A stretch of DNA of 64,000 nucleotides from Lepisosteus oculatus (lineage: Eukaryota; Chordata; Actinopteri; Semionotiformes; Lepisosteidae). Positions 5,015 through 56,699 of this stretch are shown in pieces; the stretch's first letter is position 1; every line of letters begins with the position of its first letter. The translations under genes were made by a program, and so were the position numbers. The stretch is taken from NCBI RefSeq assembly GCF_040954835.1, contig NC_090704.1, positions 13,537,501 to 13,601,500 of the forward strand, written 5' to 3'. The notes beneath the pieces were generated by a model that saw nothing but the letters and a program-made list of their open reading frames with translations, made no database searches and was not told the origin of the DNA.

Positions 5015-5130
5015 TGAAAAGAAACTGCGGAGTTTAAAGACAGCAGCGCAGACCAGCTTCAAGTTGGAACACGAGTGACAGACGAGTTCACCATTTTCTT
5101 TGCAGTTGTTAAAGAGTTCCTCAAGACACA

Positions 5131-5302
5131 ATGCGATCTGTGATCTTGCCTGCACTCCTGCTTGTTATGCTAGCTTCAGCAGCTGAAGTCCAGGGTGAGG
5201 TTAAGGTTGTCAAGTTGTGTGGCAGAGAATTTATCAGAGCTGTAATCTATACCTGTGGCAGCTCAAGGTGGAGAAGAATTCTGAATGAAAAAGAATTGAT
5301 GG
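5131..5302 (+). CDS. insl5: INSL5 exon 1: signal peptide and B chain
   Basis: Runs from the ATG to the donor GTAAGT at 5303. The open frame continues to 5544, but that part is intron. B-chain cysteines are both present, followed by SRWRR. Confidence 0.92.
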
Positions 5303-6472
5303 GTAAGTCCATTGAACTATTTAATATGGACAAATGGTATTTAAATGTAAAGCACAATTGCAAGGCTGAATATTTTCACTTATTCGTGTATAATGTACAG
5401 GCTATTATCAGAAAATACTTAAACAATAAAATGTATATTAATAACTATGAAACTGCTTCCCGTAAAACTATTAAAATGTCTAAAAATCACTGGCAAAAGT
5501 TTCCAGATACACCAGAGTTCAAATGTTTTTCCTTTGATCTTTGAATGTGCTTCATTATACAGCTCTCTTCTTTATACATTTTTTGAAATTCAGATCTGCA
5601 TTTAAAAAACAAAATGTACTGCATTTGTTTTGTGCCATTGAGAACAGGTTTAGTATATTGCATGTTTTCTTTTGCTGACCACTAAATGTATACGTTATCA
5701 ATACCATATATTTCCATTGTCGATGAAGGACTTAATTAAAAGTTGTTTTGAGTAGCAGTCAGATTCTGCTCTTACCATGTAAACTACTTTATTACTAGTG
5801 CCAAATTCAGTTTTCAAGCAGCTGAACATCATTAACCTTTTTCCTGACATTATTAAAATTAATTAACATTAGACTGCTGAAAAACAACAAAAACAGAAGA
5901 TGAAATGAGCTACAGAAGAGCACCTATTACTTTCAGACTAATGAAATGCCATCTGTTTACAGAATGGAAATGGATGCTGGGCTATTATTTACTGTAGTCT
6001 TGTGTAGTGTCTGGTGTGATTTGTTTAAACTGTTCCTGTCAATGTGCTTTTTTGTTTGTGAAAACCTTACAAAATATGTTTTAAGCCCTCACAAGTATAC
6101 TTGTGTAATACAAGTATAAACATGAATTATGATTTAACCAATGAACAGCAAATAAAAAATAAAAAGGCACAAACATTCAAAATGGCTGCTATACTGCTAT
6201 ACTGATAGATATCTTCATCATTTATAAAATAAAGGATTTACTACAGTATATTCATCTGCACGTTGCACTTTGAAACAATGCACTTCTTTCCACTGTACTG
6301 TAATTGTCCAGGTTTGGCCAGCGACAACACTGATAACCTGGAGACCCTGGGGTACAGAGAACTGGCGGAGCCAGATATGGGACTCCGAACCAGACGAGAC
6401 CTCAACCAGCTTCTCACCACAGCCTGCTGCCAGTGGGGATGTAACAAGAAAGACCTGAGCTCTCTGTGCTGA
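5131..6472 (+). CDS. insl5: INSL5, relaxin-family prohormone (insulin-like peptide 5)
   Basis: Two coding exons, 5131-5302 and 6312-6472, joined in phase 1 inside the C-peptide, the classical intron position of insulin/relaxin genes. The product is 110 aa. Order: signal peptide (about residues 1-22, hydrophobic LPALLLVMLASAA), B chain with CGREFIRAVIYTCGSSRW, a dibasic RR, a short C-peptide, the processing site RTRR, then the A chain with cysteine pattern CCQWGC and a final SSLC. The RxxxRxxI motif (REFIRAVI) is the receptor-contact signature of relaxin-family peptides; INSL5 acts through RXFP4 in mammals. The B chain looks close to relaxin-3, but the position between DNAI4 and DYNLT5 is that of INSL5. 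The C-peptide, about 35 residues, is shorter than the mammalian one. Start codon choice is supported by the signal peptide and by CACAATGC context. Confidence 0.93.
6312..6472 (+). CDS. insl5: INSL5 exon 2: C-peptide remainder and A chain
   Basis: The acceptor taattgtccag ends at 6311. The exon contains RTRR before the A chain, whose spacing is CC-3-C-8-C, and ends at TGA 6470-6472. All six hormone cysteines are accounted for across both exons. Confidence 0.92.
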
Positions 6473-21500: not shown

Positions 21501-24500
21501 ACATGTTTGGGGTGTCTCCCAGGTGGCTTGTGGCAAACTTTAGACGAGACTTTTTGTGGATATCTTTGAGAAATGGCTTTCTTCTTGCCACTCTTCCATA
21601 AAGGCCAGATTTGTGCAGTGTAAGACTGATTGTTGTCCTATGGACAGACTCTCCAACCTCAGCTGTAGTTCTCTGCAGTTCATCCAGAGTGATCATGGGC
21701 CTCTTGGCTGCATCTCTGATCAGTCTTCTCCTTGTCTGAGCTGAAAGTTTAGAGGGACGTCCAGGTCTTGGTAGATTTGCAGTGGTCTGATACTCCTTCC
21801 TATCAAGATGATCGCTTGCACAGTGCTCCTTGGGATGTTTGAAGCTTGGGAAATCTTTTTGTATCCAAATCCGGCTTTAAACTTCTCCACGACAGTATTA
21901 CGGACCTGCCTGGTGTGTTCCTTGGTCTTCATGATGCTCTCTGCGCTTTCAACAGAACCTTGAGACTATCACAGAGCAGGTGCATTTATACAGAGACTTG
22001 ATTACACACAGGTGGATTCTATTTATCACCATCAGTCATTTAGGACAACATTGGATCATTCAGAGATCCTCGCTGAACTTCTGGAGTGAGTTTGCTGCAC
22101 TGAAAGTAAAGGGGCCGAATAATTTTGCACGCCCCACTTTTCATTTTTTTATTAGTTAAAAAAGTTTCAAAAATCCAATAGATTTCGTTCCACTTCACAA
22201 TTGTGTCCCACTTGTTGGTGATTCTTCACATAAAATAAAAAATTTATATCTTTATGTTTGAAGCCTGAAATGTGGCAAAAGGTTGAAAAGTTCAAGGGGG
22301 CCGAATACTTTCGCAAGGCACTGTATATGGACTTGCTTATGAAATTCTGAACCATAAACTACTACAAAGCCTTAATTACTGTGCAATAGTTAATTAAATG
22401 TTCTTACCTGATACTTTAACATGTCTACATTGTAGTATGTTGCTTGTGGTTTCTGCTCTGCCACTTTCTTTAAATGTGTCATCAAGTTTGGCATATTCAC
22501 CCAAAACTCCTTTGAGTTGGCAGGAGTGTGCGTGACATCACTGTAAAATAACAGATAACAGATTAATACAATCTGCTTCAATTTGTATTCTATTAATTAA
22601 ACTGAATTGGCTACCAAGGCTGAATTGCACATGCAACAGCAAATAGAGCACAAATTTCGGGACAAAAATGAATGATGTTGATTGATTTCATTAACTAGAT
22701 AAAGATCTGTCATCAAAATACTACATGACGCATGTTCAAAATCTGTTAACTGAAAAAAATGTTACTTGTCCATAATACAATTACAAAATTTAAATGCAAA
22801 TCATCATGTCTTAGAATCAGCTACCATTTTGGACATAAGAAAACAGACATGCTTATGAAAATGAGCTTCAAGAGCTTTGAGATAACTCTAGCAGTTCAGT
22901 GTGTGAGCACTATGAGACACAGATGTGGCTTTAACCCAGATGTCTGAGGGAACAACAGCCTGTCCATAAGGATAAGGACATCAGCAACCTCCCTATAGCA
23001 AGAATGAGCCAAGGATCTGTTATAAATAATGGGATGGGGGAAGGAAATCAAAACAATGCAGGCTGGAAAAGGGATGTTTGCTTCCCATAGGTACAGTATA
23101 CTGATTTGGGCATTGTAGAGGATAAGCCCTTGATCTCAGACTTATTTTATGAATTCCATTAATTTTCTTACAGAGTTAAGCTATGAGGCACTGTTCAGAA
23201 GAGAAGGAGAATTGTTTTACAATGGTACGGATAACATTTTTGCAAGACTATTTTCTACATAGTTGATTTGTAAAACAGTATAGCTGGAAACGTGCTGCAT
23301 GTTGGCTTGGTAATGTTCCGAATTTGATTCTGGAATCAGAATCTTCTGTGGGGAGTTTCTTTGTGTTGTTTTGTGTGGGTATTATGATGGACTGGAAACC
23401 CATCCAGAGTGTAGTCATGCCTTGCACTTCATCTCGTATAAGAACTGCGATTGCCATTAACACTATCAAACAATGGATGAATGGTTGAGAATTACAGATT
23501 ATATGTATGCCCTAGTCATTAATTAGCAGGCACGGCTACGATATATACCATATGCTAACCGCAAACTGATTGCTGCAGTTGCCTGTCTCGATACACAAAA
23601 CAAAAGATCAGACACACCTTTAATGATCTTATGTTTGAAGGGCAGATAGCGTACTTATTTTATTATCTGTCTTTAACTTACCTGGCAGAGGAGGTGACAG
23701 CATTGGTCATAAGATCAAGGCTAACAAAAGGACTGAAGGATGCACAGCTCTTCAATGATGGAGCTACTGATACAGTATGTGAGCTTTGCTTAACTGAATC
23801 AGTTTGGATAAGCAAGGTTTTGGAGGCACACCAACCAGAGAATGTGCTCCGTAGTGAGTGCTAAATGAAAACTGTGTATGATACAAGCAAGGGCACAAAT
23901 TCAGCTAACAGCTGGAAGCAGTGCTTAAAAACACTAGATCAGTTTGGATCGGGATTCCATCCATCCATTCATCCACCTTGTTCTAACTGCTAGTTTAGGG
24001 TCCAATTTAGAGTCATGGGGGAGCCAGAGTTTATCCTGGCAAGCAACAAGTGCAAGGTGGGATACACTCGGGATGAAATGCCAGACCATCGCAGAACAGA
24101 GAGACACAAACACAGACTTGCACACGCTCAAGCTAGTGCCAATTTTCCCAGAAGCCAGTTAGCCCGTGTGGCGTTAGACGGAGCATGTTCAGTGTGGTGG
24201 TGGAGCCCTGGATTAAGGGTAACGCATTGCCTTAGCAAGCACAGCTGTCCTGGCTAATTAAAGATGAGCCGCAGCTGGGGAGGCCTTTTAAGAACCGACT
24301 GAGCACCTCCCCAGAGGGACAAGCAAAGCAGGACTCTGGTCCTGATACCCCATAAGGGGAGAACATTCCAGAAACAATCCCCGGCGGGGGGATTGTGAAG
24401 AGAGCGTTGAGGCCATGTTTTTCCTTCTTTTAATTTTCCTTTTCTTTTCTCCTGTCCCGCTGTGATGGGGCAGGTTGGGTTTTCTTTTGTTTTGGCCTCG

Positions 24501-30500: not shown

Positions 30501-33500
30501 ACCTTAAATCAAATCATCCATAGTGCATTCAGCATCAGATATAATTCAGGTAAATTCTAACTTACTATATAATTATAGAATATCTGACCAGCAATAAAAA
30601 TGTGTCTGTGAATCTGTGATGTTCTGTACTATACTGGCTGATACAAACTGCAGACAATACCATATTAAATTGTTTGAATCATCACTTGAAATCAAACTAA
30701 TCAAACTATAGGAAAAGTAAAAATTAAACTGGCTTGCATATTTTTAATTCTAGAAAATGGAAGATAGAAATGATACATGAGCACAATGTGCCTCATATAT
30801 GATTGCCATTTAAACAACTACATCCTGACAAAGTTTACCTTTTCATAGGAATGGTATTAAAGACATGTAACTTTGGCTGTCATTGCATGTGTAAGAAGTA
30901 AAACAGCAAGAAACAAAATTTACCATGCTCGATATGGTCCTACTTTGTATAAGTGATGTTGGGAATGCAAATCTGCTGTCCATAGTCTTTAATCTATGCT
31001 CTTCATTACACCCATCAGCACGAAAGTGATGCCTGCCATTCTAAACACTAATAAGTTTTCACTACTATGATCTTTTGTTCATCAAATGGCATCATTAATG
31101 CTATACGCACCTATGCAGAAAGTACACGCATTAGAAATATACTGTCTAATTCTGCTGGCATAATGGCTTGTTTTGTGATATTTCAATGTCCCTGGTTCCT
31201 GTAGGCTGATACAATACCTGCAGGTGTATCACTGCGCCTTTCAAACGTGGGTAGTTTGTCAACAAATGCGTCATCTTCTGACATTGACAAAAAAGATAAG
31301 CCAAAGAAAAGGAAACAAATGTAAAAGCAGAAATCAAGAATGAAATGACAGTGACTTTTATGTATGCCTTCTGAGATTCAGATTTCTAAAACATTAAAAA
31401 AGAAAAAGTCATGCTTAAAAAATGGAAAAATGCAAAACAAATATGAAACTGAACATAAAATGAACTGAAACCATCAACCCATCTGTTTCAACACCTGACC
31501 AATTTCTTAGTCCTCCAGAACAACGCAATACATGAAGTAATACAGCATACAACACTTGGTTATGTTATCATTAGAATTTTCTTTTCAACTGTTGTAAGGA
31601 ACTGTATACAGTACATCAACTGAATGTTTAAGGGACCATCACAGTTTAAATTCTATAGTAACATCCAGTGTGAATTATTATGATACTTATTGCTAAATAA
31701 TAAAATATAGACAGGAAAATACATTAATAAAATATGTAATTACACATGCACTTTCTAGATACCTTCTCAGCCAAGTAAAAAGACAAATGTTATCATAGCT
31801 GCTCAAAGTTTCCTTTAGAACATCCACCATATTGCTCTTCACAAGAAAAAAATGTATGGTGCTGTTACACGATACGTCTGCTTAGATTGTGTGCTATAAA
31901 AGTGGTAAAACTAAGGCTTCAGGCCAAAACAGAAAATGTCAGGTCATTACAAAAATCATCCAGTCACCCCTAAAAAGATTCATAACATTAGTTGACGCTT
32001 AGCAGAAAATCAAACATTGTAAAAATGTCAAATATAAGGCTGAGAAAACATCAGGCATTTGAAGATGATGGTAAGGAATTCGGACCTGAGACAGAAATGG
32101 AGAGGTCTTTACCGACTGTGGGTGTGGTAGCAGCACTGAGGGAGTTGGTCGATGATATGGAGGAGGTACTTTCAGCACGAGCCAAGGGGGCAATAGGTGG
32201 GGGGCTGGAGGAGTGGATTGGAGGGCTGAAGGGCCGGGCCTAAAATAATAAAGAAAACAAGGATTTAGCATCATGGCACCTGAGGCAACAATGAGATCTC
32301 TTTTGTTAGAGTAAGTCAATATAATTAAAATAATAAATATCAAATTACATGATAAAAATGATAAAAAACAAAAGGAAAAGCTAAAAAAATTGTTCAGCAA
32401 ATAGACTTCTGAAAAGTATGTTAAAGTTGCCACATCAAGGTTAGTATCTTCAGTTTTAGAAAATTACAGGAGAACTAAAACTTGAACTTGAACTTTATTG
32501 CCATATGTAACCGGTACTGGCACAATGGAATTCTTACTTACAGAAAGTCTCTCGATTGTAAAACAAGTGTAAAAAACAAGACAAAGTGCAAACAGTGCAT
32601 CAAGACAATGTACAAACAAACAATAGACAATGTGCAAGTTAACATGTAGACAGTTTGAATGTAAACAATACAGACGTGTAAACAATGACTGGAGATGTGC
32701 AATAGATAAGAAATCATAAAGAGGTAGATGGTGATGGTGTAGGTGTGGACCGAGGGGGATGGCTGAATGTGTTCGCCAGTCTCACTGCTTGTGGATAGAA
32801 GCTATTGAAGAATCTAGTGGTAAGTGTCCGTATGCTCTTATATCTCTTGCCTGAGGGCAGTGGGGTGAAGAGCTTATGCCCGGGGTGGTGACTGTCCTCT
32901 GTGATGGCCAGAATTCTACCACGGCAGCGGTCCTCATAGAGCTGTTTAATCTCAGTGAGACCGCAGCCGATGATCTTCTGGGCCATATTGACTATTCTCT
33001 GCAGTGCCTTTCTTTCTCGTGAAGAGGTGTTGCCATACCACACGGTGATCCCGTTGGTGAGGACGTTCTCGATGGTGCAGCGGTAGAAGTTCACCAACAC
33101 ATGTATTGGCATCCCCCATCGCTTGAGGCACCGCAAGAATTAAAGGCGCTGCTGAGCCTTCTTCATGATAGAGTCAGTGTTTACAGTCCAGGTTAGGTCT
33201 TTAGAGATGTGAATTCCCAAAAACCTAAAGCTGGTGACTGTTTCCACTTCCGTTCAATCAATACTGAGTGGGCTGTGAGTGTGTGGCCTGTGTCTCTGAA
33301 AGTCCACTATTAGCTCTTTCATTTTCTTACAGATACCATAACAGGTAATGTGTTCACAGCAAAAGAAATGAAAACTTGACAACATAATTGGCTTTAACCA
33401 TCTAGGTTTGAGGAATAACACCCAGGTCAGGTTGACAAGGCAGTTGAAACCAACCTACAGTATAAAAATAACCCAAGGGGTGTCAAGCTGAGGTACTGTC

Positions 33501-36500: not shown

Positions 36501-39500
36501 TGCAGCCCATTCTGCTAAAGCACTCTGAGTGAAGTGCCCAGATCAAGGGTGCGACAGTAGTGACCATCTGTCAAGCTACAACCTTAAATGGCTAGGACCC
36601 AGGCACTACTCCACACTGCTATGTATAAAACACCACACTGCAGCTTGTGAGGTTACCCTAAACCTCTGAAGCACTATTATAATAAAGAGCATTCCTGGTC
36701 AGTTTCAGGAATAAAAAAATTCTTACAGCAAAAATATTTGAAAATTAGGCAATGTCAATGGTCATGCAAAGTGACTAAAATGGCATGTATTTGCGATTAC
36801 AGGTACAAGATTTCATTTTGGGAACATTTTGTCTGACTTTGGTAAGATTCAGCACTTGTTTTCAAATGTTTGCTTCTTTCCTGACATTAGGCAAATGTTA
36901 ATGGGTTGAAGCTTCATGCTGTGCTGTTTTTGAAGGTATCCAATGTGATGAATCTCGCTGATTCCCATTTTTGGGGGGGTAAATTCCTTTTGAGTAAGAC
37001 TTACTTCCAGTAGGAAATGGTCTTGGCAATGGGGAGTCTGGATTTGACTCAGTTTTAGGTACACCCCACACTTCAGGCTCATCTATTACCACTACATTGA
37101 AAAGGAGAATAATACATTGTAATATGAACAGACCCCTCAGCAGAAGTAAGAGCGTACTGCATAAACTGCTTTAGCTGAAAGTAAAAAAAGAATCAAAATA
37201 ATTTTGCTACATTACTACAGGGTAATCACTCATGTTCATTAATGCATTGAGCTTTTTTACATTGGCAACACTTTGACCAGCAGCAGACCGTATCTCACTA
37301 TGATTATACTAATCGTGGAGACTGTCTGCCCCGAAGACCAATAGAATTATCGTTGTGGGATTTTTTCCAGTTCTTAAAATGAGCTTTGGCAAGATCTAAC
37401 CACCTTCTGCACGTTTTAGTTAAGGGTGGGTTAACTCTAGCACCTGCCAAGCTAATTATGTTGTACAACACATTTCTAGGCTAGGCTTCAGTTAATCCCA
37501 CCTTAAATGACCTCCCTTCCTCCCGGCACCCACCTCCATTCAACTTCAATCAGACAGTCAGACTAGTTGATTCGAGAGCAATACCTTCTGTCTTCTGTGC
37601 TTCAAAGGCTGTTTCCAGTGGGGGCCCAAACAAGACTGTCGGATCCTCTGGTACTGCCGTACTGGTAGAACAGTAAGAGCAAGGAGAGTAAGCCGGCTTG
37701 CCCATGCACAAGTACACAAGAACATAAGCATAAACAGTTCATTGTAAAAATCAAGAATACTTGGCAGAAAACACGGAGATCAGGACAGGGTTTGGAATTT
37801 GTTCTCCAACCTGTCCACCTTCATCTATTAACACATTGCTACCACTTCAACTGTAACTCTTCACCTTTTATATTCAATTACCCCAGTAGTTCTACCAACT
37901 GTAAAACTTACACAGTGTAATTTCTACACCTGTGCAATTGTATGCAATTTGAGACATAAATCACAGATCACAGCACACTGCTACTTCCTTACAAAACGAA
38001 TAATACTAACTTTGTAGGCTCTGGAGCGGGAGTAGGAGTGGATCGCCTTGGCCTTGCTATTTCTTCACCTATTAGGGAGATATTAATATAATCTTTATAT
38101 TCATATATTATTTAATACCAGATGTAATATATATACTGTATATTACTTCATAATGTTAATGTAATGTTGATATCTAAAAATATCAATTAAAATATTGGAA
38201 TTTCAGCTTCATAAAGAAATATAATACTAAATGTGTCTTAACTACAGTGATTCTATAAACTTAATTAAAATTAAATCTTGAATGCTCTCCCCCTCCTTGG
38301 AGGAATTCTCAAATTGTCACTCGTGTAACCTCCAAACATGTAGATCTTTTAAGTTTACAGAATGCAATACTTACTAGATAGGTTTCTTTTTATCAGACCC
38401 TGCAAATAAAATAATAAAAAAAAAATTAATGGACAATGTAAGACAATGTAATAAAATCTATTAGACACACCAAGCCTGTTCAGGTACTGCACTTAACCTC
38501 TGGGCTAGTAAAGTCAAGAAAGGCATTTTTACACAGAAATATCAAAAGTCTCCATTTGCGTAACATAAAAGGAATCCACAGAACTTTAAAGGTCAAATGT
38601 TGACGTCGCTAATATTCGACTATAAAGTTGTGATTAGCGTTTCCACCAGCGATGACTGATCTATGAACAAAACCAAGAGTATGACTAATTTATTTTTGTT
38701 CACAGAGGAATTTGTTTCCTGTTTTTTTCCATTAAAAAAAAAATCTGAAGAAATACTGATGCAAAATTTTCATGCGCTTAAGTGATATGAAACAAAATCA
38801 TATGAAAACAAACCCCCAAAATAATTTTGAGTGCTGTGTATTGTTTACAGCTATAATAATCTACCAAATCGCAGAGTATTTCAGGTTGCGGAAGTTGTAT
38901 AAATAATTGTATTAATTTCTAATACAACATTGTAATTGCTGGCATGCTATGCCTTTCAGGAAAATTATGTCCATATAATTTGAACAAATTGAACAAATAT
39001 ATCCAATAAATATCCAAGTTAATTTAAAATCTAATCAGTTACTGCAGTCTGGGGTGACAAATCTGGCCAATGAAGCACAAAAAAGTTCTGACACACCAGT
39101 TCCATATTACACACCAGCCAGTACAATAAAAAGTGTTGTCAGGCTGAGGAGGGTACTGTCCTTGACGACAACTGAAAAAAGTGAGCCTGTCTAATTGAGG
39201 GACTGCAGATAAATGGTTTGTCAATGGGCACATGCAGTCTTGAGCAGCCAGCCTCTCTAATACTGACAACTAGGGTAGGGTGGTCCCTGATGTGGTTTGT
39301 CTTTTGGAAAAACTTATATAGTCCCACACATATTGTATGATAGGATAGGATTACTGCAGTATGACTGTTAATCTGAATTTTGAACCACCAAATGGTTGGT
39401 TGTTAATAGACCTTTATACCCTGAAGTACATGTAACAAATGAGCTTATAATGATGCCCACATTTAAACAACAGAGCTTTGCACTGAAAATGAGACATGTA

Positions 39501-42500
39501 CATGTGAGAACATTATACTTTCAATATAATGTAATATATATATTATTTTTTGTGTTTGAGTGATACATATTTCAAGCTACAAAGACTTCTCCAGTAATGT
39601 GTAAAATAAAGTTTACATAAAGTAAAATTATGTAAATAACATGTACAGTATCTAACAGGGTGTAAGATTTTGATAAGTAACAAAACCATGCTATAGCTTC
39701 AGCATTTAGCTGTGTTGAGGGTGAAATGAAATGATCACACTCTGTAGCCTCACTATAAAATAACTGACAAGTTGAGAAACACCTTTAAATATTTTATTTA
39801 CACATTTGATTATTGTTTGTTCCATTTAAGACTACTTACCGGACTACGTCTCTGTGACCAGCAAAAAGGAAGAGAGAAGAGACACCTGGTCAGAAAGTGA
39901 CAAATCAGTAAACAGAAAATTCACCACTTCTACTGTATGTGTCACAGATTTTCCCTCCATAATACTACAAGAACAAAATATTTCTATGGACAAAAGCAAC
40001 TAATGATGATTATCTTACAAGATGAATGCCAGTCACATGAAAATTCCAGATCCTCATGAAAATGTGCCTTTAATTAAACAAATGTTGAACATTCCATTCC
40101 TCTTACTGTGCATGTATAACAAACATTACAAAACAGGTTTTATTTTATAATGATACTATATATATATAAATCTTACAGATTTACTAAGAAGCCTCTATGT
40201 TTTTTTTTCTAGAAAATTAACACATTAGCAAAACTTGAAAATAAATAATGATAAAAAATACAATTTTTTCTTGAATTTAGGCTATAACTATCTGAACCCA
40301 TGTTCTTCCTAATTCATATCAGTGAGCTAGATTCTGGTGAAGTTAGTAAACTTGGTCAATTTTGCAGACAGGAATAGCAAAAAAAGTAGAAGTTCAAAAA
40401 TATTTAACAAAATTCAAGACGGAGCAAACACCTTACAGATGATATTAAATGATGTATTTAACATTTAATATTAACACGTGCAGAATATTACCACTCAGGC
40501 AGCAAAAACATTAAGTACAGATACAAGATGATAATATGCATAGCTAGAATGTGAAATGTTTGAGGTGACATAGAAAAAGAACTTAGGTGCTTATGTTGAA
40601 TATCATTTATATCTTCTAGACCAAGTAGGGAAGCAGTTAAATGCAAACAATGTTAGAATATATAGCAATAAGCCTAGAATTAAATCAAGGGATGTTATGT
40701 TAAAATTGTACAACTCTGTAGTAAGACTTTAATTTTGAATTTTATGTACAATTTGGTCACCATATTACAAAAAAAATAGCTGCTTAAAATTAATTAGTTT
40801 CTCAATCACAATTGCTGCTCTGGAACCAGTCTAGAGAAAAGCTTCCAGATACAACCCAGGGCTTCAGTGAATGTCCTACACATGCATTGGAGCTTTTTTA
40901 GTCTTGAACACAGAAGACTATATGGACCTGATAGATGAACCATAAAACAGAGTACCCTGTGGAAGAGCATTTAGAACTGAGATCAGGCAGCATTTCTACA
41001 CAGAGGATTGTCAATTATGTTGAAGCAGACAGCCTGGTGTTTTTCAAGAAACAGGTGCAGGCCATCTTTAAATCTAACCAAATAGGCTAGATTGGCTGTT
41101 GTAAAACAGTTCTTATGCTTTGAAAAAGATTATGACAATGTAATGTAATAGGTTGACCTTATGTCTTATGCCAAGTCTGTATTATGGGTCTGTCCCAGGT
41201 GTTCTGACTTTTTAAAGGGGAGCTGTTTATCTTATTCTTCTAAAGAGAAAATTTAGCATTCCAGGCCAGAAATCGAAAAGGTGTAATGAGAAGGCAAAAC
41301 CTTCACTTGGTATATAGTTCTTGTATTAACTAGAAGACAAGTGTTGACATTAACTAGATTAACTAGAAGACAAGTGTTGACAGCTTTGCAATTTTAAAAT
41401 ACTTTGTGTTTTTAGCCCCATTAAATGCAATAAAAAGAACCAGAAAGAAAATGATGCTGTTATTTAACTAAATGGTTTTATTGTTTAAATAAAGCTTAAA
41501 TCCAGTTATTCGGATTATTGGTCATTAAAAGCGTCATGCAATTGAAGTGAATTAGACATCAAAGTACTCTCTTCTTAATTTCGATTTTATACTTTGTAAA
41601 TGGTAATGCAGTCTAGTAGATGTTCTAAGAAATGTCTGTTCTGGTGTTTGTAAAGCAAGATAAGACTTGTCAGGGAATCAATAAGATACTACTTTAATTT
41701 AAAACTAGACAGATTAAAATTAACAGGTCCAAAACATAAATGTAATTAAAACTGAGTCTGTTCAGCCCACATAGGAACAACAATCTGTCCAGTAAACATC
41801 AGTGTAAAGTCCAGAAGTCTTAGTAAATGATCAAGCAAGACTATAGATTTCAAGAAGAACGTTTACATAGAGAAATTAAACTCAAGATGTAAGAAAAATA
41901 AATAATTAAAATATTTTTGTTCTATGACACTATATACCAAGGACATGCAATCATGGTTATGGAAAGCTACAGTATGTGCAAGTATTCAGCTCTGGGCTTT
42001 TAACAATTTCAATTGGCTAAATATGAGCTAAATTGCAGCAGTTAAACAGCTTCTATAAGATCTTCAGTTGCTGGTGCTTTAAAGTGAGCTTTAATGTGAG
42101 CTAAAAAACCTTCTGACACACATGCTTTCCAGAACCAGGATTGGGGACCTCTGCTATAGACAGAGTTACCGTAAATAAGATTCAAGATCAATAGTTGCTT
42201 TGAGGATTTCATTAACAGTCTAATAGCAAGTGTCTATAGTAATTAAAGTACAAGTTGTAAGCAATGTTTTTGGATTCTGTTACACCACACAAGATTTTAT
42301 GTATTATGTATCCATCACAACCACACAGCTTGCAGTTTTCATACTGTATCAACCCAAACACTGTTTTGTGGCAGTCATAGTTTTTTAATCCTTTGAATAA
42401 AAAGGTTTGTTCTAAGGCAAGTTTGAAAACTCATTTTATTTGTTTTTAATTGTGTAAGTGACTGAAATCTACATATTTCTATTATTTTTTTGCTACCTAT

Positions 42501-45500
42501 TATTCTATTATTTTTTTAATTCGTAGGGCTTGAGCCTGTAATATCATCATAAACTGTTTTCAAAAACGTTTCAGAAAAAAGATAATGGATTTCATTGTTT
42601 TACAATGGTTAAACACAGATCATCAGGGGCTGACTAGGATGAGATGCAAAAAAAATACAGTGGTACTGTGGATTTTATTTTTCTGTAGGCACCAGTGGGA
42701 AGAGGTTACATGCACACATGCAGTCATCTTACATGCATGGAAACCGTTCAGATCATTTAATTTGAACAGTGGAAGATTAAATACAAGCTTACCGGACTTC
42801 TCCTCTATAGAAGCCAAAGTTGAGAGAGAGAGTAAATAGCAAATCCTATGTTAGGTTAAATTACAAGACTACAATATTAACATTGTATGAAAAAATGGAA
42901 ACCATGCTGGCATAGATTTTTTAAAAGGCTCATGAGCTTTGCAGAGCACCTCAAGATATATAATATGGGCCCTCAATTCTGGAACCTCAATTCTGTGTGT
43001 CTGCTTGATCTGATTAATTACAGGTCTTTCTTTTCTTAATTTAAAAATTAAATGTTGCCTGGATCTGAAGCACCTGAAAATTTAAACCGGCCATTGCAGA
43101 CCCCCAATGTGAAACAGAAATGTCTAAAAACAGAGTTTAGATCAGAGATTAAAAATAATTTCAAAATGATCAGAATAGATGAAGAGTAAATGAAGCAATG
43201 CATGATAATCAAGTATGGATGTATTGTAGATGAACAGTATACATTATATTCAATAAGGCATAAACAATGAAGAAGAGGACATTTAAATATATTTTTTTAT
43301 TCCCATCTCTGCACATACCTAAACATAACCTACATATGCATTTTTATTTTGAGTCAAAATACAAAAAAGTTTCAACTTTTATTTACAGTACATTTCTCCA
43401 TTACTGGAGACCAACAGCACTTGTTATAAATCAATACTTTACAATGTATGGCAATTTCTTTAGAAACAGACACCAACACAGCTAAAATATTGAATGAATT
43501 TTTCTACATTTCGGTTTTGTATTTTCTGAAGTAATTTAACAAACTATTCAACTCCAAGTGAAGCAGAGATGGAGTGTGGGAAGCCCTATTGTTCTGTAGT
43601 TTAGAACCCTGTTAACCTTTGCTCCAGCTTCCATTCTTCCAAATACATTTCATGGTCAATCTGTAGCTATGGTTACCACTTGGCAAAGACATGTTGCTGT
43701 GGCAACATTTGCCATGGAGAAGAAAGAAATGCTACTAATGTATAATTCATACAGAAATGTCATAGGTTACAAATGACAGTTAGACATTTCTTTATTTAAT
43801 GCAAACAACAATTGGAAAAAATCTCTGGACACAAATATTTGTTTTCATTGATGTTTTCTGGAGTTATTTATGCCAGTGCTTCAAAACCCTTTGTGTTTTG
43901 TTCCTTAGTGTTTTCATTTCTTTGAACTAGCTCAGAACACATTGTATTTATTTAATTTTAATTACCCGAACAGCAATGAAAGCACACCCCCTTATTCTTC
44001 AACACCACATATTTGCTTTCAACAACACTGAGGATTTGGGAAATTAATCAGTCCAGGGGGAAGGACACTATCTGAATCTAAATAAATTTTAAAAGCTTCC
44101 TGTTTTAGATTACTTAAATCATTAATGCATCTTATTGCCTACTTACTAAGGTAACAGCTGGACATTCATATGGAAACACTTTCTAAATCTGTCCATGCAT
44201 TTCAGAGCAAACGTCTGAAAAGAAAATGGTTTCCTTGTTAGGCCACAAAATTACATTTTGAAATAGAGGTGATCCGTTTCAATCTTCAACAGCTACTGTA
44301 TATGGAGGACTCCTATCATGCGGACACATAAATGAACCAGATGGTTGCTTAATTGCATGGGATTTCCTTTGTTAATAAATTAACCGTTAACAAGAGCCTG
44401 CTTAAACCAGTGCATTATAGAATTTGATTATTTCCTTACAACATGCCATTATGGCATTGTCAGAAAACTGAAACAGAATTTATGTCTACACCAATAGTAG
44501 GCTAATTATACTACTATCACACAGAAAATGTTATACAAAATCCTGCCAAAAATCAAGGATTAATTCTATCAGTGCTACTTCGCATTTGTCTATGCATTGA
44601 GCAGAAAGTACCTGCACTGTGATTCCAGCTGAAATGTCAACATCTTACACTTATACTTGCATGACTGCTGTGTCATGTATTGACATTCACAACGACAGTG
44701 CATGTATTTGACAATGCTTACGCTGATGTGTGTTTTCTTGTAAGAATCTAGTGTGCCGCAGGCATGATGCTCTGTACAGTAAAGCTTTTCTTGATAAAAG
44801 CAAGTGACATATGGATGAGTTTTCATCTGTGCACGTGGGAGGAAGTCTAGCTTTTTCTTAATTGATTTAAGAGTAACAGTGACCATGTCTACAAAAAGTG
44901 TGGCTTCTGCTGCATTTCATTTTCTTTTTCATTTGTGGATGATCTTATAAAATCAGCACACAAACAAAGCAACATGAATCACTCAGAACCACATGAACAG
45001 ATGCATCAAGTCAATTATTATATATATAATTATTATTATAATAAATATAATGGATGTTTCAGTTTTTTGTCAGTTTTGACTTTAAGTAATAAATCAAAGG
45101 CAATCAAAATAAAACTGAAAGCCTGTGTGTCACTTTAATGAAGGAGCATGATATGAGTCTGTCTCTGCTCATTTGAAAGTCTCAAAATGTGTTTGTCAAG
45201 AATGAAGTAAAAAACTCGTAGTTACAAGCAAAAAGAAACTATCTGCCAGATGGGATGACTGTTTATAATACCATGAATATACAATACATGAAGTGACAGT
45301 ACCAACATTATTAAAACATCTAAAATTAACCTTGTCTGTGGTTTTCAATATCATTTGTGTTTATATGTGTTGTTTTATATCACATTTTCAATGTGTTAAT
45401 TTAAGTCTGACCAGTTTGAGATGTCTGTGTTTTCTGTACCCAAAAGGCTGTAAATCTGCAGCTGTAGTTCACAGAGCTTTACTGTGAATTGCTTAGTTTC

Positions 45501-46815
45501 CAGATTTCTCAAATTTCAGACCTCTGCAAGGGAATAATATTTAACACTCTTCTTCCATTCCTTTGTGCCTAATAGCAGATTCCAAAACTCCTGCTTCAAT
45601 GGATTCTGTTAACAAAACCCATTAATTAAGAGAAGACCACAATGAATGGCAAGAGACGAAACTCAGACTTAAAATTACCTGAATGTTGCCCATAGCTTTC
45701 AGGTAAATTGTGACAAAAGTTGAATTAAAAATATGAAATGATTGTATATTTATAGAAAATGAAGAAACTCACCACCGGAGAGGGAGACAGGGCTATGTTG
45801 CCTATGGATGCTTTTAGTTCATCTACTGAAGCTGCGGTATTGTTTAAGGTGTCTTTAGCTTGCAAAGGTTTGATCTTAATCTTAAACTTTTTCCTGTGAT
45901 CTTCCTCCTCTTCTGACTCACTGGAGGAGAAGAAGTGTTTCCCTTTGGTGGTGGGTGAATCTTAGTTAAGGAAATAGCAAAACAAAATCCAAAAATAAAT
46001 ATAGAGTCTAGTCCTATAAAATACAGACTGAATTGGAAAGCTAGAGTTTCTGCAGCAGAGTTCTCCTCTATATACTATATACCAAATCCACTACTTTATA
46101 TTCCCTATAAAACGAACCTACTGTATATATAACATTTTTTACCATATTTATAGATAACCGTATGTAACTATGACATCTTCTGTGACAAATTTGCAAACCA
46201 TAACTTAAGCAATAACCTAGTACTGAATATTCAAGTAGGCTAGTTCTGGTGAAAGCATTTGCACAGCTTGTATTCAGACTCAAGTATTTGTTTTTTTGAA
46301 GAATCAAGTCTGATCTTATCCAGATCTTACCCTCCTACTGCAGCCCACACTACTCTTTGGGACACTGTAATAAATTGGCACCTCCAAATGCCATCAACCT
46401 GCCAACTGGCTTCACCCACGGAATTTGACCAGTAGTGCTTCTCTTCTGTATGTCCTCCATGGATAAGAGGCACTGAGAAGTATAACTTCTACCTCCAACC
46501 TACCTCCCCCTAGTCCCCACATTTTAAGTTACTGCCTCTCAGAGTCCTTCACAGTCTTGTAAAAGATAAAATGATAAACTAAAAACAAAACACATCTTTT
46601 CCAGATAATGCACTCTAGTGATCTTTGAAGGTGGCAACATTAAGGATATTTCCTGCATCCTCCTCTGGTCTAATACTGTATCCCTCATCATCAACTTCAG
46701 GGGAATTCTGAAATGAAATAACATTTAAGGAATAGAGAGAGTAAACCGCTACATCTTTTCAGAAAGAACAGGTTTGTATAGCCTGCAAAATATAACAACA
46801 ACAAGAACAACAACA

Positions 46816-46854
<39 letters not shown>

Positions 46855-49341
46855 GGTGATGAGTACTTACATATCGCTCCCAGTCAATCTCTGCATAAAA
46901 TCCATTGGGAGCTCCATTCGTCTTTTTCTGCATTTGACAGGGAATGATTGGTTTAGAAACTTATCATACTAAGTGGTCCCTGATTGCATAAGGAATGGTA
47001 CCCGTTTATTGTTCATTTCAAAAAGTGCATGTAGAATATTTATTTTGCTTGCTCATTGAGATTCAGATAATATTTATTCCCCAGGTCCCCCCCAGTCACA
47101 CTGATTTACACCAGAAATTATGCTAGTTTGTTATTATAATTCATCACATTAATAAAGGACCTCAAAGCAGTTTACATATATAGGGAGCCACTTCCTTCCG
47201 CTTAGGTGCAGTACCAACCTGGGAGACACGTGGCAGCCATCACGCACCAGCAAGCCCATGGCACAAAAGCAGTGAACATGTGCAGAACTAAGAAATTACT
47301 CACCAACTGACTTACAGGTAAGTCAGAATGTGCAAGTCCAGTGGGGAATTCAGCTAGGACATTGGGGTTAACTAACCTTGCTTGGACATACATTGCCGTG
47401 TGATCTTCCTGACCAAATAGTCAGGAACTTGAATGAAAATCTCATCTGAAGTTCTCCTACAGCACGCTTTCAGTATTCACAACGGAGAATTCTGTTCTGG
47501 GGTAAGTTCTGGTCCAGAGAAAAGTGCGTCACCTATTAGCGCACCAACACTTACTACTGCATTCTGATTTTCCCTGGAGGTCTCCTAACTCAGTACTGAG
47601 ACCGAGAGTACTGAATACTGACGAGGCCCAGTGTTGCTCAGTCTCTCTGATGAGATTAGGCTTAAAGGGGGTAATGCTACTCTCATGTTATACTTGACAA
47701 CTTTCAGTCCGTATTTTTTTCCTGAAAACTGTGCACATTATAATCAGCAATAAAACTCACAAAGAATGTTTAAATGCCTAATTAACATTAAAATATAATA
47801 CTTACACTTCCATCTCTGTCTGGTGATCCTCTATAAAAGAAAAAAAAACATTAATATTATGAAAAGATAGGATATGAGTTATGTGGGCTTTTAGTGGTCT
47901 GAATAGATTTAAACACAAATGTGCTGTTTTAACTGATAAGTCTTAATACTACATACAGTATAGTGCATAATAGCTCATATGCAATGTAGAGGCATGATTA
48001 ACCAAAATTCTAACTGAAATAACTTGCAAAGCTCAAACAAACCAAAAAAAACAAAAGAACAACACTCAATACAAACCCACAAACTGACCGGATTGATAAC
48101 ATACTGTAAACAATGTAGTTTTTCATTCATGTTTTAGTGAAAGTCTACTGTTGATGGTTGACTTCATAGTTTTCTGCTGTTGAGTTCCCATGCTATAGCT
48201 CTAGGGACAGGGTCTGATTCAGAAAACTGACTTACTGTATATTTTACTTAAAATGTAATGTGTAAATATCAATATCCACAAATTCTGGTTGATTATCATT
48301 GTTGATAAGCATTCAGAAAACGTTAAGAAATACTCTCCCTAGAATAGTTATAATTGCTTGAATTTGTATTAATCAGCACTGATAGTGAATTAGTAGCACT
48401 GTTATCTGGGACAGTGTCCTTTATCCTTAGAATTCACTTCAAGTTTGAGTTCACTTCAATAATGATGTACTTAATGTTAGCAGCCTGATAGAAAGGAATT
48501 CCATCACTATTCATTATTATACAGCATATGCTATATCATTTTTTCACTGACAATAAATAGCTACTAAATAGCTTGATAAAGTTGATGAAAAGGGAATAAT
48601 AGCTCATCCCACAAGACAACTTTTACTTGTTTTGATCTGAGCAACTTCAAAATGAAATGTCTAGTTCTGTAACAAAAGAAACAAAACAGACAAATAACAT
48701 ACAGAGCAAGTATAAAATATGTGGTGTATCAGCCATGCAAACCATGTCTTTCTTGTGCATACTGTATTCATGTTCTGTATACATACAGTGAGAGAATAGG
48801 TTTAAAACAGATGCACAAAGTGTTACAAATAAAATGAGTCCACTTGGCAATAGTTAATAGCTAATTGATGTGAGGACCTCATCCAGCTGTTTCTTGAAAG
48901 AAGCAAGGATATTGCCTTCAGCAACATGGCTGGGTACCTTGTTCTACACTCCCACTACTTTGTAGGGGGAAAGAAGAACTTCCTGTTCTTCCACACTTCC
49001 ATGTTATTTCCACGTGTTCAGATTTCACTGTCCCTCCTAAATCTGAAAAAGTCTGTCGGGTTAACTTTGTCAGTGCCCTTAAGGATTTTGAATACACGCA
49101 TCAAGTCCATTCGTAATCTTCTCTGCCCAAGACCGAAAATGTTCAATTAAATATCTTTGTCACATGGCCACTATTTCCTTTCAGAAATCTATTTTAAATA
49201 CTGTAGGTGCAGGCACGGTTTTTCTATGTGACATTTCAAAAGGAGCCAAAGTGGGCAGATCCACCCAATTTACTTACGTAGAATCAGTGTCCTTTTCTTT
49301 CTTCCGTATGCCAAAGGCCTTTCTTGTACGCTTTTTCAATC
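18576..49341 (-). CDS. sgip1: SGIP1, endophilin-interacting endocytic adaptor with mu-homology domain
   Basis: Twenty-three coding exons on the - strand, all joining in phase, total 2471 nt from 49341 to the stop at 18576. The first exon (expected to give ATGATGGAAG) lies outside the window or was not found; with it the protein is about 826 aa, against 828 aa as I recall for human. N-terminus: lysine-rich [15 protein letters not shown], the phospholipid-binding region; then [16 protein letters not shown], an acidic [10 protein letters not shown] segment, RRSP repeats, a long proline-rich middle with [10 protein letters not shown] and [12 protein letters not shown] that binds SH3 proteins such as endophilin and intersectin, and from about residue 540 a C-terminal mu-homology domain ending GKYLADN. 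The family acts at the plasma membrane in clathrin-mediated endocytosis, mostly in neurons, and modulates CB1 receptor internalisation. FCHO1/2 share the domain but lack this N-terminus. Confidence 0.95.
18608..18649. repeat. (CAAA)n microsatellite
   Basis: About ten tandem CAAA/ACAA units. On the - strand it is (TTTG)n, 8 nt before the terminal SGIP1 acceptor. Confidence 0.95.
18780..18931 (-). mobile_element. tRNA-derived SINE, family B, 5' part
   Basis: On the - strand it starts GGTAGCAGTATGG, has a B-box-like GTGGATTCCAATCC, and continues with a GCAAGGTACCTCACTCAGATTG segment also found near 36500. In an SGIP1 intron. Confidence 0.55.
19312..19476 (-). CDS. sgip1: SGIP1 mu-homology exon: VGSLLARF to FAAG
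   Basis: Acceptor ctctgcctag, donor GTAGGT. It encodes [40 protein letters not shown] and [11 protein letters not shown]. Confidence 0.94.
19611..19652 (-). mobile_element. Fragment of SINE family A
   Basis: Shares GAGCCTATCCCAGCAAGCAATGGGC-like sequence with the copies at 9060 and 24015 (short stretches only). Confidence 0.45.
20036..20100 (-). CDS. sgip1: SGIP1 mu-homology exon: [19 protein letters not shown]
   Basis: Acceptor caatctccag, donor GTAAGA. It encodes [20 protein letters not shown]. Confidence 0.93.
20289..20491 (-). CDS. sgip1: SGIP1 mu-homology exon: [15 protein letters not shown]
   Basis: Acceptor caaatcctcag, donor GTAAGA. It encodes [40 protein letters not shown] and ends LQAVLPPAA plus a split tryptophan. 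Confidence 0.94.
20695..22323 (-). mobile_element. Nearly full-length Tc1/mariner transposon
   Basis: A 1629-bp element flanked by TA dinucleotides (20693-20694, 22324-22325). Its inverted repeats, about 213 bp each (20695-20907 and 22111-22323), begin CAGTGCCTTGCGAAAG and are almost identical by eye, so insertion is recent. It sits in an SGIP1 intron with its transposase in the same orientation as the gene. Confidence 0.95.
20914..21932 (-). pseudogene. Tc1 transposase, frameshifted
   Basis: Two overlapping frames cover the whole Tc1 transposase: 21932-21720 (start [12 protein letters not shown]-terminal helix-turn-helix with [17 protein letters not shown]) and 21696-20914 ([11 protein letters not shown] to AAKGGSTKY). 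The catalytic triad is visible in the second frame: D in [10 protein letters not shown] in [10 protein letters not shown] and E in LNPIENLW, spaced as in DD34E enzymes. The frames are separated by what looks like a single-base loss near 21800, where the normal IILKW-type junction is disturbed. The protein would normally cut and paste its own element; this copy cannot make a full-length one. Confidence 0.9.
22408..22540 (-). CDS. sgip1: SGIP1 mu-homology exon: [16 protein letters not shown]
   Basis: Acceptor gttattttacag, donor GTAAGA. It encodes [20 protein letters not shown] and ends NVDMLKYQ. A Tc1 transposon lies in the next intron. Confidence 0.94.
23300..23482 (+). mobile_element. SINE family A copy, 5'-truncated
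   Basis: Contains GTGGGGAGTTTCTTTGTG, ATGGACTGGAAACCCATCC and ends AATGGATGAATGG, matching the family A body and tail in + orientation. Confidence 0.5.
23952..24912 (-). mobile_element. SINE family A copy split by a later insertion
   Basis: The 3' half (23952 to about 24180) and the 5' half (about 24765-24912, with head GCACAGCGGTGCTTTG and B-box-like TTGGTTCAATTCC) belong to one element on the - strand. About 585 bp of unrelated sequence lies between. Confidence 0.6.
24181..24764. mobile_element. Unidentified insertion inside a SINE, with internal tandem repeat
   Basis: GC-richer than its surroundings, with long T/C-rich tracts. Two units of about 72 bp are repeated (24514 onward and 24586 onward, both containing GACCCCG and AAGTGGT). 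It could be a solo LTR or nonautonomous element. I could not find clear target duplications or ends. Confidence 0.4.
25640..25795 (-). CDS. sgip1: SGIP1 mu-homology exon: [15 protein letters not shown]
   Basis: Acceptor cctttcaag, donor GTAAAT. It encodes [20 protein letters not shown], then [20 protein letters not shown] and [11 protein letters not shown]. Confidence 0.94.
26657..26768 (-). CDS. sgip1: SGIP1 exon: start of mu-homology domain
   Basis: Acceptor gctgtgttgcag, donor GTAAGC. It encodes [20 protein letters not shown], then [16 protein letters not shown]. Confidence 0.93.
27283..27311. repeat. Short perfect inverted repeat (13-bp arms)
   Basis: Arms TAACATAACCCTT and AAGGGTTATGTTA with a 3-nt loop, in an SGIP1 intron. 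Confidence 0.8.
27992..28191. mobile_element. Snapback retroelement insertion with 12-bp target duplication
   Basis: A 200-bp insert flanked by an exact 12-bp direct repeat GAAAATACATTT (27980-27991 and 28192-28203). Its first 155 bp form a perfect palindrome: arms 27992-28067 and 28071-28146 with loop AAC. The remainder (28147-28191) is single copy and ends GCAGCTACCCACCT. The 12-bp duplication fits reverse-transcription-based insertion. No coding capacity. Confidence 0.85.
29233..29292 (-). CDS. sgip1: SGIP1 exon: [16 protein letters not shown]
   Basis: Acceptor cgtccacacag, donor GTAAGT. It encodes [19 protein letters not shown], just before the mu-homology domain. Confidence 0.92.
32113..32239 (-). 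CDS. sgip1: SGIP1 exon: [14 protein letters not shown] to AATTPTV
   Basis: Acceptor attattttag, donor GTAAAG. It encodes [20 protein letters not shown] then [20 protein letters not shown], a serine-rich linker before the mu-homology domain. The opposite-frame open reading here is a shadow. Confidence 0.93.
32480..33330 (-). mobile_element. 3' end of a non-LTR retrotransposon (LINE), decayed
   Basis: On the - strand the frame 33136-32714 encodes the reverse transcriptase C-terminal segment ([61 protein letters not shown]). Further upstream (33140-33330) the preceding segment is readable in another frame, so the coding part is broken. The 3' tail ends in a TTTATTGCCATATG motif. Clade likely CR1/L2-like, not certain. 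Confidence 0.8.
33638..33759 (-). CDS. sgip1: SGIP1 proline-rich exon: SSSPARP to PGKPAVGDV
   Basis: Acceptor tggatcgcag, donor GTATGT. It encodes [20 protein letters not shown] then [20 protein letters not shown]. Confidence 0.92.
35261..35833 (-). CDS. sgip1: SGIP1 large proline-rich exon
   Basis: A 573-nt exon (about residues 248-438). Acceptor ttttccattaaag, donor GTAATG. It contains [24 protein letters not shown], repeated proline/alanine stretches, [20 protein letters not shown] and VVSSPGP. This region contacts endocytic SH3 and EH-domain proteins in mammals. The start carries an extra segment ([11 protein letters not shown] onward) relative to the human main form as I remember it. 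Confidence 0.92.
35949..36023 (-). CDS. sgip1: SGIP1 exon: [14 protein letters not shown]
   Basis: Acceptor attttag, donor GTAATT. It encodes [20 protein letters not shown] then SDSA, a proline-rich block with likely SH3-binding motifs. The open frame merging this exon with the next reads through the intron. Confidence 0.9.
36440..36628 (-). mobile_element. tRNA-derived SINE, family B
   Basis: Resembles 18780-18931: starts AGCAGTGTGGAGTAGTGCCT on the - strand, then GGGCACTTCACTCAGAGTG and AGAATGGGCTGCAAT. In an SGIP1 intron. Confidence 0.5.
37005..37091 (-). CDS. sgip1: SGIP1 exon: DEPEVWG to RPFPTG
   Basis: Acceptor caatgtag, donor GTAAGT. It encodes [18 protein letters not shown] then [10 protein letters not shown], as in the mammalian protein. 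Confidence 0.9.
37585..37661 (-). CDS. sgip1: SGIP1 exon: [17 protein letters not shown]
   Basis: Acceptor gttctaccag, donor GTATTG. It encodes [20 protein letters not shown] followed by AQKTE. Confidence 0.88.
38011..38068 (-). CDS. sgip1: SGIP1 exon: [13 protein letters not shown]
   Basis: Acceptor cctaatag; donor GTTAGT, which is weaker than usual. It encodes [18 protein letters not shown]. Confidence 0.85.
38375..38399 (-). CDS. sgip1: SGIP1 25-nt microexon (GLIKRNLS)
   Basis: Acceptor tttatttgcag, donor GTAAGT. It encodes GLIKRNLS and leaves one base to make serine with the next exon, matching GAIKRNLSS of mammals. Confidence 0.85.
39840..39851 (-). CDS. sgip1: SGIP1 12-nt microexon b (RRSP)
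   Basis: AGACGTAGTCCG between acceptor ggtcacag and donor GTAAGT, phase 0. Also encodes RRSP, using different codons from microexon a. Confidence 0.78.
40830..41115 (+). mobile_element. Interspersed repeat, family D
   Basis: Contains TTGAACACAGAAGACTAT, GGCAGCATTTCTACACAGAG and TTTTTCAAGAAACAGGTGCA. The reverse complement of 48855-49150 has the same layout, so they are one family. I recall similar sequences from non-teleost fish. Confidence 0.5.
41325..41382. repeat. Direct duplication of a 25-bp segment
   Basis: ATTAACTAGAAGACAAGTG and TTGACA occur twice at a 33-bp period. Confidence 0.8.
42118..42155. mobile_element. hAT-like MITE fragment
   Basis: CCAGAACCAGGATTGGGGAC is the typical end of nonautonomous hAT elements in fish. 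Only one end is present. Confidence 0.3.
42793..42804 (-). CDS. sgip1: SGIP1 12-nt microexon a (RRSP)
   Basis: AGGAGAAGTCCG between acceptor ttctatag and donor GTAAGC, phase 0 on both sides. Encodes RRSP, in place of human RKSP. Confidence 0.75.
45773..45954 (-). CDS. sgip1: SGIP1 exon: acidic cluster to SPSPV
   Basis: It starts after the AC acceptor and encodes [35 protein letters not shown] and [18 protein letters not shown]. The donor GTGAGT leaves phase 0, ready for the 12-nt microexons. Confidence 0.9.
45955..46649 (-). other. sgip1: U12-type AT-AC intron in SGIP1
   Basis: The intron (695 nt) begins ATATCCTTAA and ends TTCAC. A perfect U12 branch-point motif TTCCTTAAC lies at 45965-45973, with the branch A 12 nt before the exon, the spacing expected of minor introns. 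Splicing AT to AC gives G-T-T-T-K-G-K-H, matching the conserved GSTKGKH of mammalian SGIP1. A major-spliceosome alternative (AG at 45961-45962) has no GT donor to pair with. Confidence 0.85.
46650..46707 (-). CDS. sgip1: SGIP1 exon ending at a U12-type AT donor
   Basis: It encodes [19 protein letters not shown] plus one base. Acceptor tatttcatttcag. No usable GT donor follows in phase; instead the intron begins ATATCCTT, the minor-spliceosome consensus. Confidence 0.85.
46815..46852. repeat. (TAA)n microsatellite
   Basis: About twelve AAT units in an SGIP1 intron, 19 nt from an exon donor. Confidence 0.95.
46871..46927 (-). CDS. sgip1: SGIP1 exon: [19 protein letters not shown]
   Basis: A 57-nt in-phase exon with acceptor caaatgcag and donor GTAAGT. 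The encoded block is one of the most conserved in the N-terminal half. An (TAA)n microsatellite starts about 20 nt into the following intron. Confidence 0.92.
47165..47640. mobile_element. Interspersed repeat, family C
   Basis: Contains TTCAGCTAGGACATTGGGGT, TCTCATCTGAAGTTCTCC and GTCACCTATTAGCGCACCAA, segments shared in diverged form with 57170-57480. Lies between two SGIP1 exons. Confidence 0.45.
47806..47830 (-). CDS. sgip1: SGIP1 25-nt microexon (GSPDRDGS)
   Basis: Acceptor ttcttttatag, donor GTAAGT. The first base completes a threonine codon; the rest encodes GSPDRDGS in phase with the next exon. In mammals this is followed by a longer segment that I do not find here. Confidence 0.85.
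48855..49150 (-). mobile_element. Interspersed repeat, family D
   Basis: Contains CATCCAGCTGTTTCTTGAAA, AACATGGCTGGGTACCTTGT and AAGGATTTTGAATACACGC. It ends only about 130 nt from an SGIP1 exon donor. Confidence 0.55.
49278..49341 (-). CDS. sgip1: SGIP1 exon 2 of the mRNA (first in window): basic N-terminus
   Basis: It encodes [20 protein letters not shown]. Acceptor ttgctccccag, donor GTAAGT. It begins with two bases of a split glycine codon, so a preceding coding exon must exist. Confidence 0.93.
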
Positions 49342-55799: not shown

Positions 55800-56530
55800 A
55801 ATAATAATAATAAAAAGGTGGCTTCTCAAAACGCTTTACAGGATGACAACAACAATAAATAAGAAGAAGACACAAGATAAAACACAATTACAATATAAAG
55901 AGACCGTGGATGGTGGTACTAAGAAAAGCAGAAGGGTGAAGAACGAAACCAGTTAAGTAAAGGCTTTTCTGAAGAAGAGGGTTTTGAGTCTGGATTTGAA
56001 GGAGTTTAGAGAAGGTGACTCCCTGATTTCCTTGGGGAGAGAGTTCCAGAGCTTGGGGGCATAACAGGAGAAGGCCCGGTCATCCATACAATGTAGACGG
56101 GCTTGGGGGACAGTAAGGAGAGCAGAATTAGAAGAGCGAAGGTTGCAAGGTGGGGAGTATGGTGATAATAGTTCAGACAGGTACTGAGGTGCCAAGCCAT
56201 GCAGAGCCTTATAGGTGAGCATGAGGATTTTAAAGTCTACACGGAACTTGACCGGAATCCAGTGCAAGGACTCCAGGATAGGAGTAATGTGAACACTTGC
56301 ACTAGACCTGGTCAGGATTCTGGCTGCTGAATTTTGAACATACTTAAGTTTGTTTAGAGTAGATTTAGATACCCGAGCGAGTAGAGCATTACAGTAGTAA
56401 ATTCGAGAGAATACAAATGTGTTGATCAGCTTTGCAGCCACAGTTAGTGATAGCATAGGGCGTAGTCTAGCGGTATTTCTGAGGTGAAAAAAAGATGTTT
56501 TGACAGTATGCTGCACATGTGGATCGAATG
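55800..56530 (-). mobile_element. L2/Rex1-like LINE 3' end with reverse transcriptase C-terminus
   Basis: The frame 56516-55953 (187 aa) encodes the C-terminal part of a LINE reverse transcriptase: KLINTFVFSRIYYCNALLA, LNKLKYVQNSAARILTRSS, ITPILESLHWIPVKFRVDFK, LTYKALHGLAPQYLSELL, and APKLWNSLPKEIRESPSLNS. The 3' tail follows. It is 5'-truncated, the usual outcome for LINEs, and its frame is uninterrupted, so it is fairly young. Confidence 0.85.
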
Positions 56531-56699
56531 TTAAGCCATTTTGGCTACATTCAATTCAGCTTAACTTTTCTCAATGAACAAAATGATTTTCAAACATTTT
56601 CAAATGTATGATTACCAGCAGGCATGAGAAAATAAACTCTTTAATTTAATTTAACTATTTAATTTAACTCTTCAGATGCTGGTTTAACATAAAAACCTT

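Follow-up and report, generated by a model that had tools for sequence, protein, structure and literature searches.

In U12-type introns, a rare type, U11 and U12 recognise the donor and the branch site jointly, and U6atac then takes the donor. The optimal branch distance is 11-13 nt (PMC6717393), and in the 13 vertebrates listed by PMC7367187 (Table 2), 8-26% of the U12-type introns are AT-AC. Minor introns abound in several gene families (voltage-gated sodium and calcium channels, E2F and MAPK; PMC6865273). In these families, as in the muniscins studied here, paralogues carry minor introns, which is expected from the duplication of an ancestral gene endowed with such an intron (PMC6865273).

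The SGIP1 intron described here was found in a window of 64 kb, i.e., the whole stretch of DNA that was analysed. It is similar to the vertebrate U12-type AT-AC introns (IAOD, MIDB, U12DB) in its donor ATATCCTT, its branch site TTCCTTAAC and its AC end, as well as in its 11-nt branch distance, its phase 1 and its position as the one minor intron among major introns (eight scored), and it presents no difference in kind from them. SGIP1 is a nerve-cell endocytosis adaptor, and the three genes SGIP1, FCHO1 and FCHO2 probably date from an early stage in the history of vertebrates or chordates. From the sequence, we infer both minor-spliceosome use and age, with a probability of about 0.95 for the following reading: SGIP1 harbours a U12-type AT-AC intron, which was most likely already present in the common ancestor of SGIP1, FCHO1 and FCHO2.

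The SGIP1 gene and its surroundings

With human SGIP1 as the tblastn query, we found that the best matches are ordered along the minus strand between about 49342 and 19307, amid weaker chance matches. Furthermore, the muniscin mu-homology domain of Pfam (PF10291) matched all four downstream exons that were scanned singly, three of them above the curated cut-off and one below. By these ordered matches and this domain, the gene is SGIP1, a member of the muniscin family, and the name given to it in the preliminary description is thus borne out. We modelled and scored eight SGIP1 introns, located between 49277 and 38069. Seven of them are GT-AG introns with 5-6 matches to the six positions of the U2 donor, and only the intron 46649-45955 is U12-like. 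The GT-AG intron that precedes it (46708-46870 (-)) is U2-type by its donor GTAAGT. This intron carries TTCCTTAAA, which matches the U12 branch consensus at 8/9 positions, perhaps by chance, with its A 17 nt before the intron end.

The preliminary description had placed the U12-type intron upstream of a series of microexons, and two microexons of 12 nt, AGGAGAAGTCCG and AGACGTAGTCCG, do occur downstream of it, at 42793-42804 (-) and 39840-39851 (-), respectively. Both encode RRSP, each is flanked by AG and GTAAG, and by their sequences they look like a duplicated pair. At this position human SGIP1 presumably reads RKSP-RRSP. Mouse Sgip1 is among the genes with alternative microexons (PMC7821500). 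Two exons of 25 nt were also observed, one before (47806-47830 (-)) and one after (38375-38399 (-)) the U12-type intron.

Other open frames were noticed in the window. A frame of 320 amino acids (20914-21876 (-)), situated within an SGIP1 intron, has the Tc1-type transposase domains PF01498 and PF13358. Another (5113-5544 (+)) resembles a relaxin/insulin-like peptide precursor, which we take, by eye, to be INSL5-like, and has no Pfam match at 0.01. Two frames look by eye like LINE-type remnants: 32714-33139 (-), with a sub-threshold match to PF09004 (20.1 bits for a cut-off of 21), and 55953-56555 (-), with no Pfam match. LINE-type elements of this kind are common in fish, and together with the Tc1 frame these remnants would hint at a ray-finned fish. 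Scans of the window with Rfam (gathering threshold) and for tRNAs gave no matches.

Motifs of the U12-type AT-AC intron

The intron (45955-46649 (-); 695 nt; phase 1), which we recognised by its motifs, its reading frame and its paralogues, opens with ATATCCTTAATG and closes with CTATTTCCTTAACTAAGATTCAC. Its 5' splice site ATATCCTTAA (46640-46649 (-)) is predicted to pair with U6atac, and the donor ATATCCTT at 46649 agrees with RTATCCTT in full and with RTATCCTTT at 8/9 positions. The branch site TTCCTTAAC (45965-45973 (-)), which is predicted to pair with U12, matches TTCCTTRAC at 9/9 positions and has its presumed branch A at 45966, for a distance of 11 nt to the intron end. The 3' terminal AC lies at 45955-45956 (-), so that the intron, with AT as its first two bases and AC as its last two, is of the AT-AC subtype. 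The donor, the perfect branch motif and the AC end had all been reported in the preliminary description and are all in place. Its distance of 12 nt from the branch motif to the exon is correct if measured between the presumed branch A (45966) and the base with which the exon starts (45954), whereas 10 nt separate the motif end from the exon.

Taken alone, neither motif is rare in the window. On both strands (128 kb in total), RTATCCTT is present in nine copies and TTCCTTRAC in one, which is the SGIP1 branch site; the numbers predicted by a first-order Markov model are 5.9 and 1.4, respectively. The chance that the two motifs would together border a single coding junction, one on each side, is about 3e-7, given windows of 20 and 30 positions, the limits of which were chosen post hoc. 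A chance motif match is ruled out by the joint placement of the motifs at the junction, the continuity of the protein and the introns of the paralogues.

Reading frame and protein continuity

Removal of the intron joins an upstream exon of 58 nt (46650-46707 (-); 19 residues and the first base of a codon) to a downstream exon of 182 nt (45773-45954 (-)) in phase 1, the split codon being A|CC (Thr). The downstream exon is the counterpart of the FCHO2 linker (the AP2-activator region, as named in PMC4215536). In PDB entry 7og1, the FCHO2 linker aligns with residues 1-78 of the 80-residue joined peptide (E 4.1e-20), and this alignment spans the junction with a one-residue gap there. Both the peptide match and the enumeration of in-frame pairs given below indicate a coding junction that keeps the frame. 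As the preliminary description had claimed, splicing would regain a conserved protein block, but its G-x-T-K-G-K-H is short by one residue, the block being G-T-T-T-K-G-K-H. A Pfam scan of the joined-peptide stretch retrieved no family, and no relatives of the downstream exon were found in viral contigs (112 pattern matches) or genome contigs (353).

The AP2-activator region of the linker binds AP2 and is sufficient for its activation in worms; the mouse SGIP1 segment used was residues 97-184, in the numbering of an 854-residue form (PMC4215536). The matching junction of FCHO2 is contained in stretches, corresponding to residues 2-38 of the joined peptide, of the chains 7oi5_B and 7ohz_B, from PDB entries named as AP-2 mu together with FCHO2. 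Because these FCHO2 counterparts occur there, we propose that the SGIP1 junction probably falls either within the AP2-binding linker or on its N-terminal border.

A matching intron in the FCHO2-like and FCHO1-like genes

The joined SGIP1 peptide was searched against the genome of the window (1.2 Gb, 813 contigs). It gave four hits, of which two are the SGIP1 exons and the others lie on contigs C3 and C32 (one each). Both of these further genes (2/2) have a U12-type AT-AC intron. The intron of the FCHO2-like gene on C3 (24489979-24490281; 303 nt; ATATCCTGCAAT ... CAATCCTTAACTAATTAAATAC) displays the donor ATATCCTG, with one mismatch, the branch site TCCTTAAC and an AC end. That of the FCHO1-like gene on C32 (1778008-1779597; 1590 nt; ATATCCTTTCCT ... 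CCTCCTTGACTCCCCCCCCCAC) displays the donor ATATCCTT, the branch site TCCTTGAC and an AC end. The distance from the branch A to the intron end is 11 nt in SGIP1, 12 nt in the FCHO2-like gene and 13 nt in the FCHO1-like gene. The joined peptides of the C3 and C32 genes match 7og1 with E values of 1.1e-28 and 2.2e-16. The Pfam search of the genome for the mu-homology domain gave three places on C9, three on C3 and none on C32, and the name FCHO1-like given to the C32 gene rests on exclusion.

In each of the three genes, the exon before the intron measures 58 nt, the intron is in phase 1 and the junction interrupts codon 20 when numbering begins with that exon. Because the matching codon, the phase, the 58-nt exon and the intron class are common to all of them, we propose that the AT-AC intron is most likely older than the SGIP1/FCHO1/FCHO2 split, its AT-AC form having been kept in all three genes. 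The best blastn match among the three introns (695, 303 and 1590 nt) has an E value of 0.092, which argues against recent copying. One ancestral minor intron is the simplest reading of the three muniscin introns.

Alternative junctions and alternative splicing machinery

To consider other junctions, we enumerated the GT-AG, GC-AG, AT-AC, AT-AG and GT-AC pairs that keep both flanking frames, with the first intron base between 46667 and 46598 and the last between 46008 and 45859. There are 48 such in-frame pairs (24 AT-AG, 10 AT-AC, 8 GC-AG, 4 GT-AG and 2 GT-AC). The 10-residue stretch that has a counterpart in FCHO2 is kept by nine pairs, all AT-AC or AT-AG, and by none of the four GT-AG or eight GC-AG pairs in the range enumerated. 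GT-AG and GC-AG junctions in this range are ruled out by their failure to preserve the stretch, and the preference of the preliminary description for AT-AC over GT-AG at this junction stands, none of the in-frame GT-AG pairs (0/4) keeping the stretch in this enumeration of the sequence. The donor ATATCCTT is used by only two of the nine stretch-keeping pairs, those ending with the AC at 45955 or with an AG at 45961; the remaining ones employ the donors ATGCAGGA, ATGTTGCC or ATCACTAG.

The pair ending at 45961 deserves attention, as the same U12-type intron could end, always or alternatively, with this AG (AT-AG), in frame and with the 10-residue stretch kept, thereby adding two residues to DAGTTTKGKH. 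We regard this as very improbable, however, as this AG ends 5 nt past the branch A (45966), versus 11 nt for the AC and an optimum of 11-13 nt (PMC6717393), and no AG occurs between the branch site and the AC in the FCHO2-like and FCHO1-like introns. Even less credible, to the point of being nearly negligible, is the removal of this intron by the major spliceosome as a member of a divergent AT-AC subclass. Several AT-AC introns are indeed spliced in that manner (PMC6717393), but the SGIP1 donor matches the U2 consensus at 2/6 positions versus 8/9 for U12, and the branch site is a 9/9 match to U12. In addition, AT-AC introns represent at most 0.07% of the U2-type introns, versus 8-26% of the U12-type ones, in the same 13 vertebrates, for totals that are very different (PMC7367187, Table 2). 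The assignment of 46649-45955 (-) to the U12-type AT-AC introns is supported by the donor, the branch site, the branch distance, the phase and the conservation in the paralogues, and its removal would most likely be carried out by the minor spliceosome.

Minor-spliceosome snRNAs and predicted pairing

The same genome was searched with the Rfam cut-off for U6atac, U12 and U11, three of the four minor snRNAs (the fourth being U4atac), only the best candidates being scored. Among these, at least six matches exceed the cut-off for U6atac (best 129.9 bits), at least three for U12 (best 125.3 bits) and at least one for U11 (107.9 bits). Two U12 copies with equal scores (C12:39128951-39129104 and 39145103-39145256) lie in opposite orientation, 16 kb apart.

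When U12 is paired with the branch site of SGIP1, the second A of that site is predicted to have no partner. The predicted energies of U12 pairing are -9.1 (SGIP1), -7.3 (FCHO2-like) and -10.2 kcal/mol (FCHO1-like). The control TTCCTTAAA of the upstream U2-type intron, with -7.4 kcal/mol, comes level with the FCHO2-like branch site, and because this control does as well, the U12 pairing energy is not discriminating. Regarding U6atac, the predicted energies of pairing with the donors are -5.4 (SGIP1), -4.6 (FCHO2-like) and -8.2 kcal/mol (FCHO1-like), as compared with -2.0 and -3.5 kcal/mol for two U2-type donors, so that the gap to the AT-AC donors is modest. Hence, such predicted energies separate the U12-type from the U2-type sites poorly.

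Discussion

By analogy with other U12-type introns, we propose that U11 and U12 would recognise ATATCCTT and TTCCTTAAC together in SGIP1, U6atac would then replace them at the donor, and the exons would be joined between the first and second bases of the Thr codon, thereby restoring the linker. If the intron were retained, translation would meet a first in-frame stop (TAG) at 46615-46617 (-). This stop lies 11 residues past the exon in SGIP1, and the corresponding distances are 7 and 60 residues in the FCHO2-like and FCHO1-like genes. The retained SGIP1 form would thus lack the mu-homology domain and the greater part of the activator region.

The early stop makes it possible that minor splicing limits SGIP1, and one may ask whether the intron is a putative control point, the slow removal or the retention of which sets the SGIP1 level. 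The occurrence of an early stop upon retention in all three genes and the preservation of the AT-AC class across them would agree with such a role. Nevertheless, many retained introns of any class yield an early stop, retention was observed for 150 minor introns out of 617, and these were the shorter ones (PMC6717393), and, as the title of PMC10639083 puts it, neutral processes may explain much of minor intron evolution. Altogether, we consider a control point unlikely. Somewhat more doubtful still is the wider proposal that, through the ancestral AT-AC intron in the AP2-activator linker, the supply of all three AP2 activators putatively depends on the minor spliceosome and shifts with U6atac.

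In the open-licence PMC literature, we found no article combining "minor intron" with SGIP1, FCHO1 or FCHO2 (this search covering the articles themselves). Among the matches listed for SGIP1 with "U12" or "spliceosome", none is on minor introns by its title, and those for FCHO2 with "U12" are off topic by title. The terms FCHO and SGIP have no occurrence in the main texts of PMC6865273 and PMC6717393. The SGIP1 intron may well already figure in lists of minor introns, and the finding added here is its conservation across three muniscin genes of one genome. As to its kind, the intron is nothing unusual among minor introns, and its history is most likely deeper than the preliminary description had seen.

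Together, these data add the muniscins, which are activators of the clathrin adaptor AP2, to the families whose members share a minor intron, and they do so at least for this genome. Should the dependence on the minor spliceosome be true, defects of this machinery would presumably extend to endocytosis, via SGIP1 at synapses and via FCHO1 and FCHO2 elsewhere.
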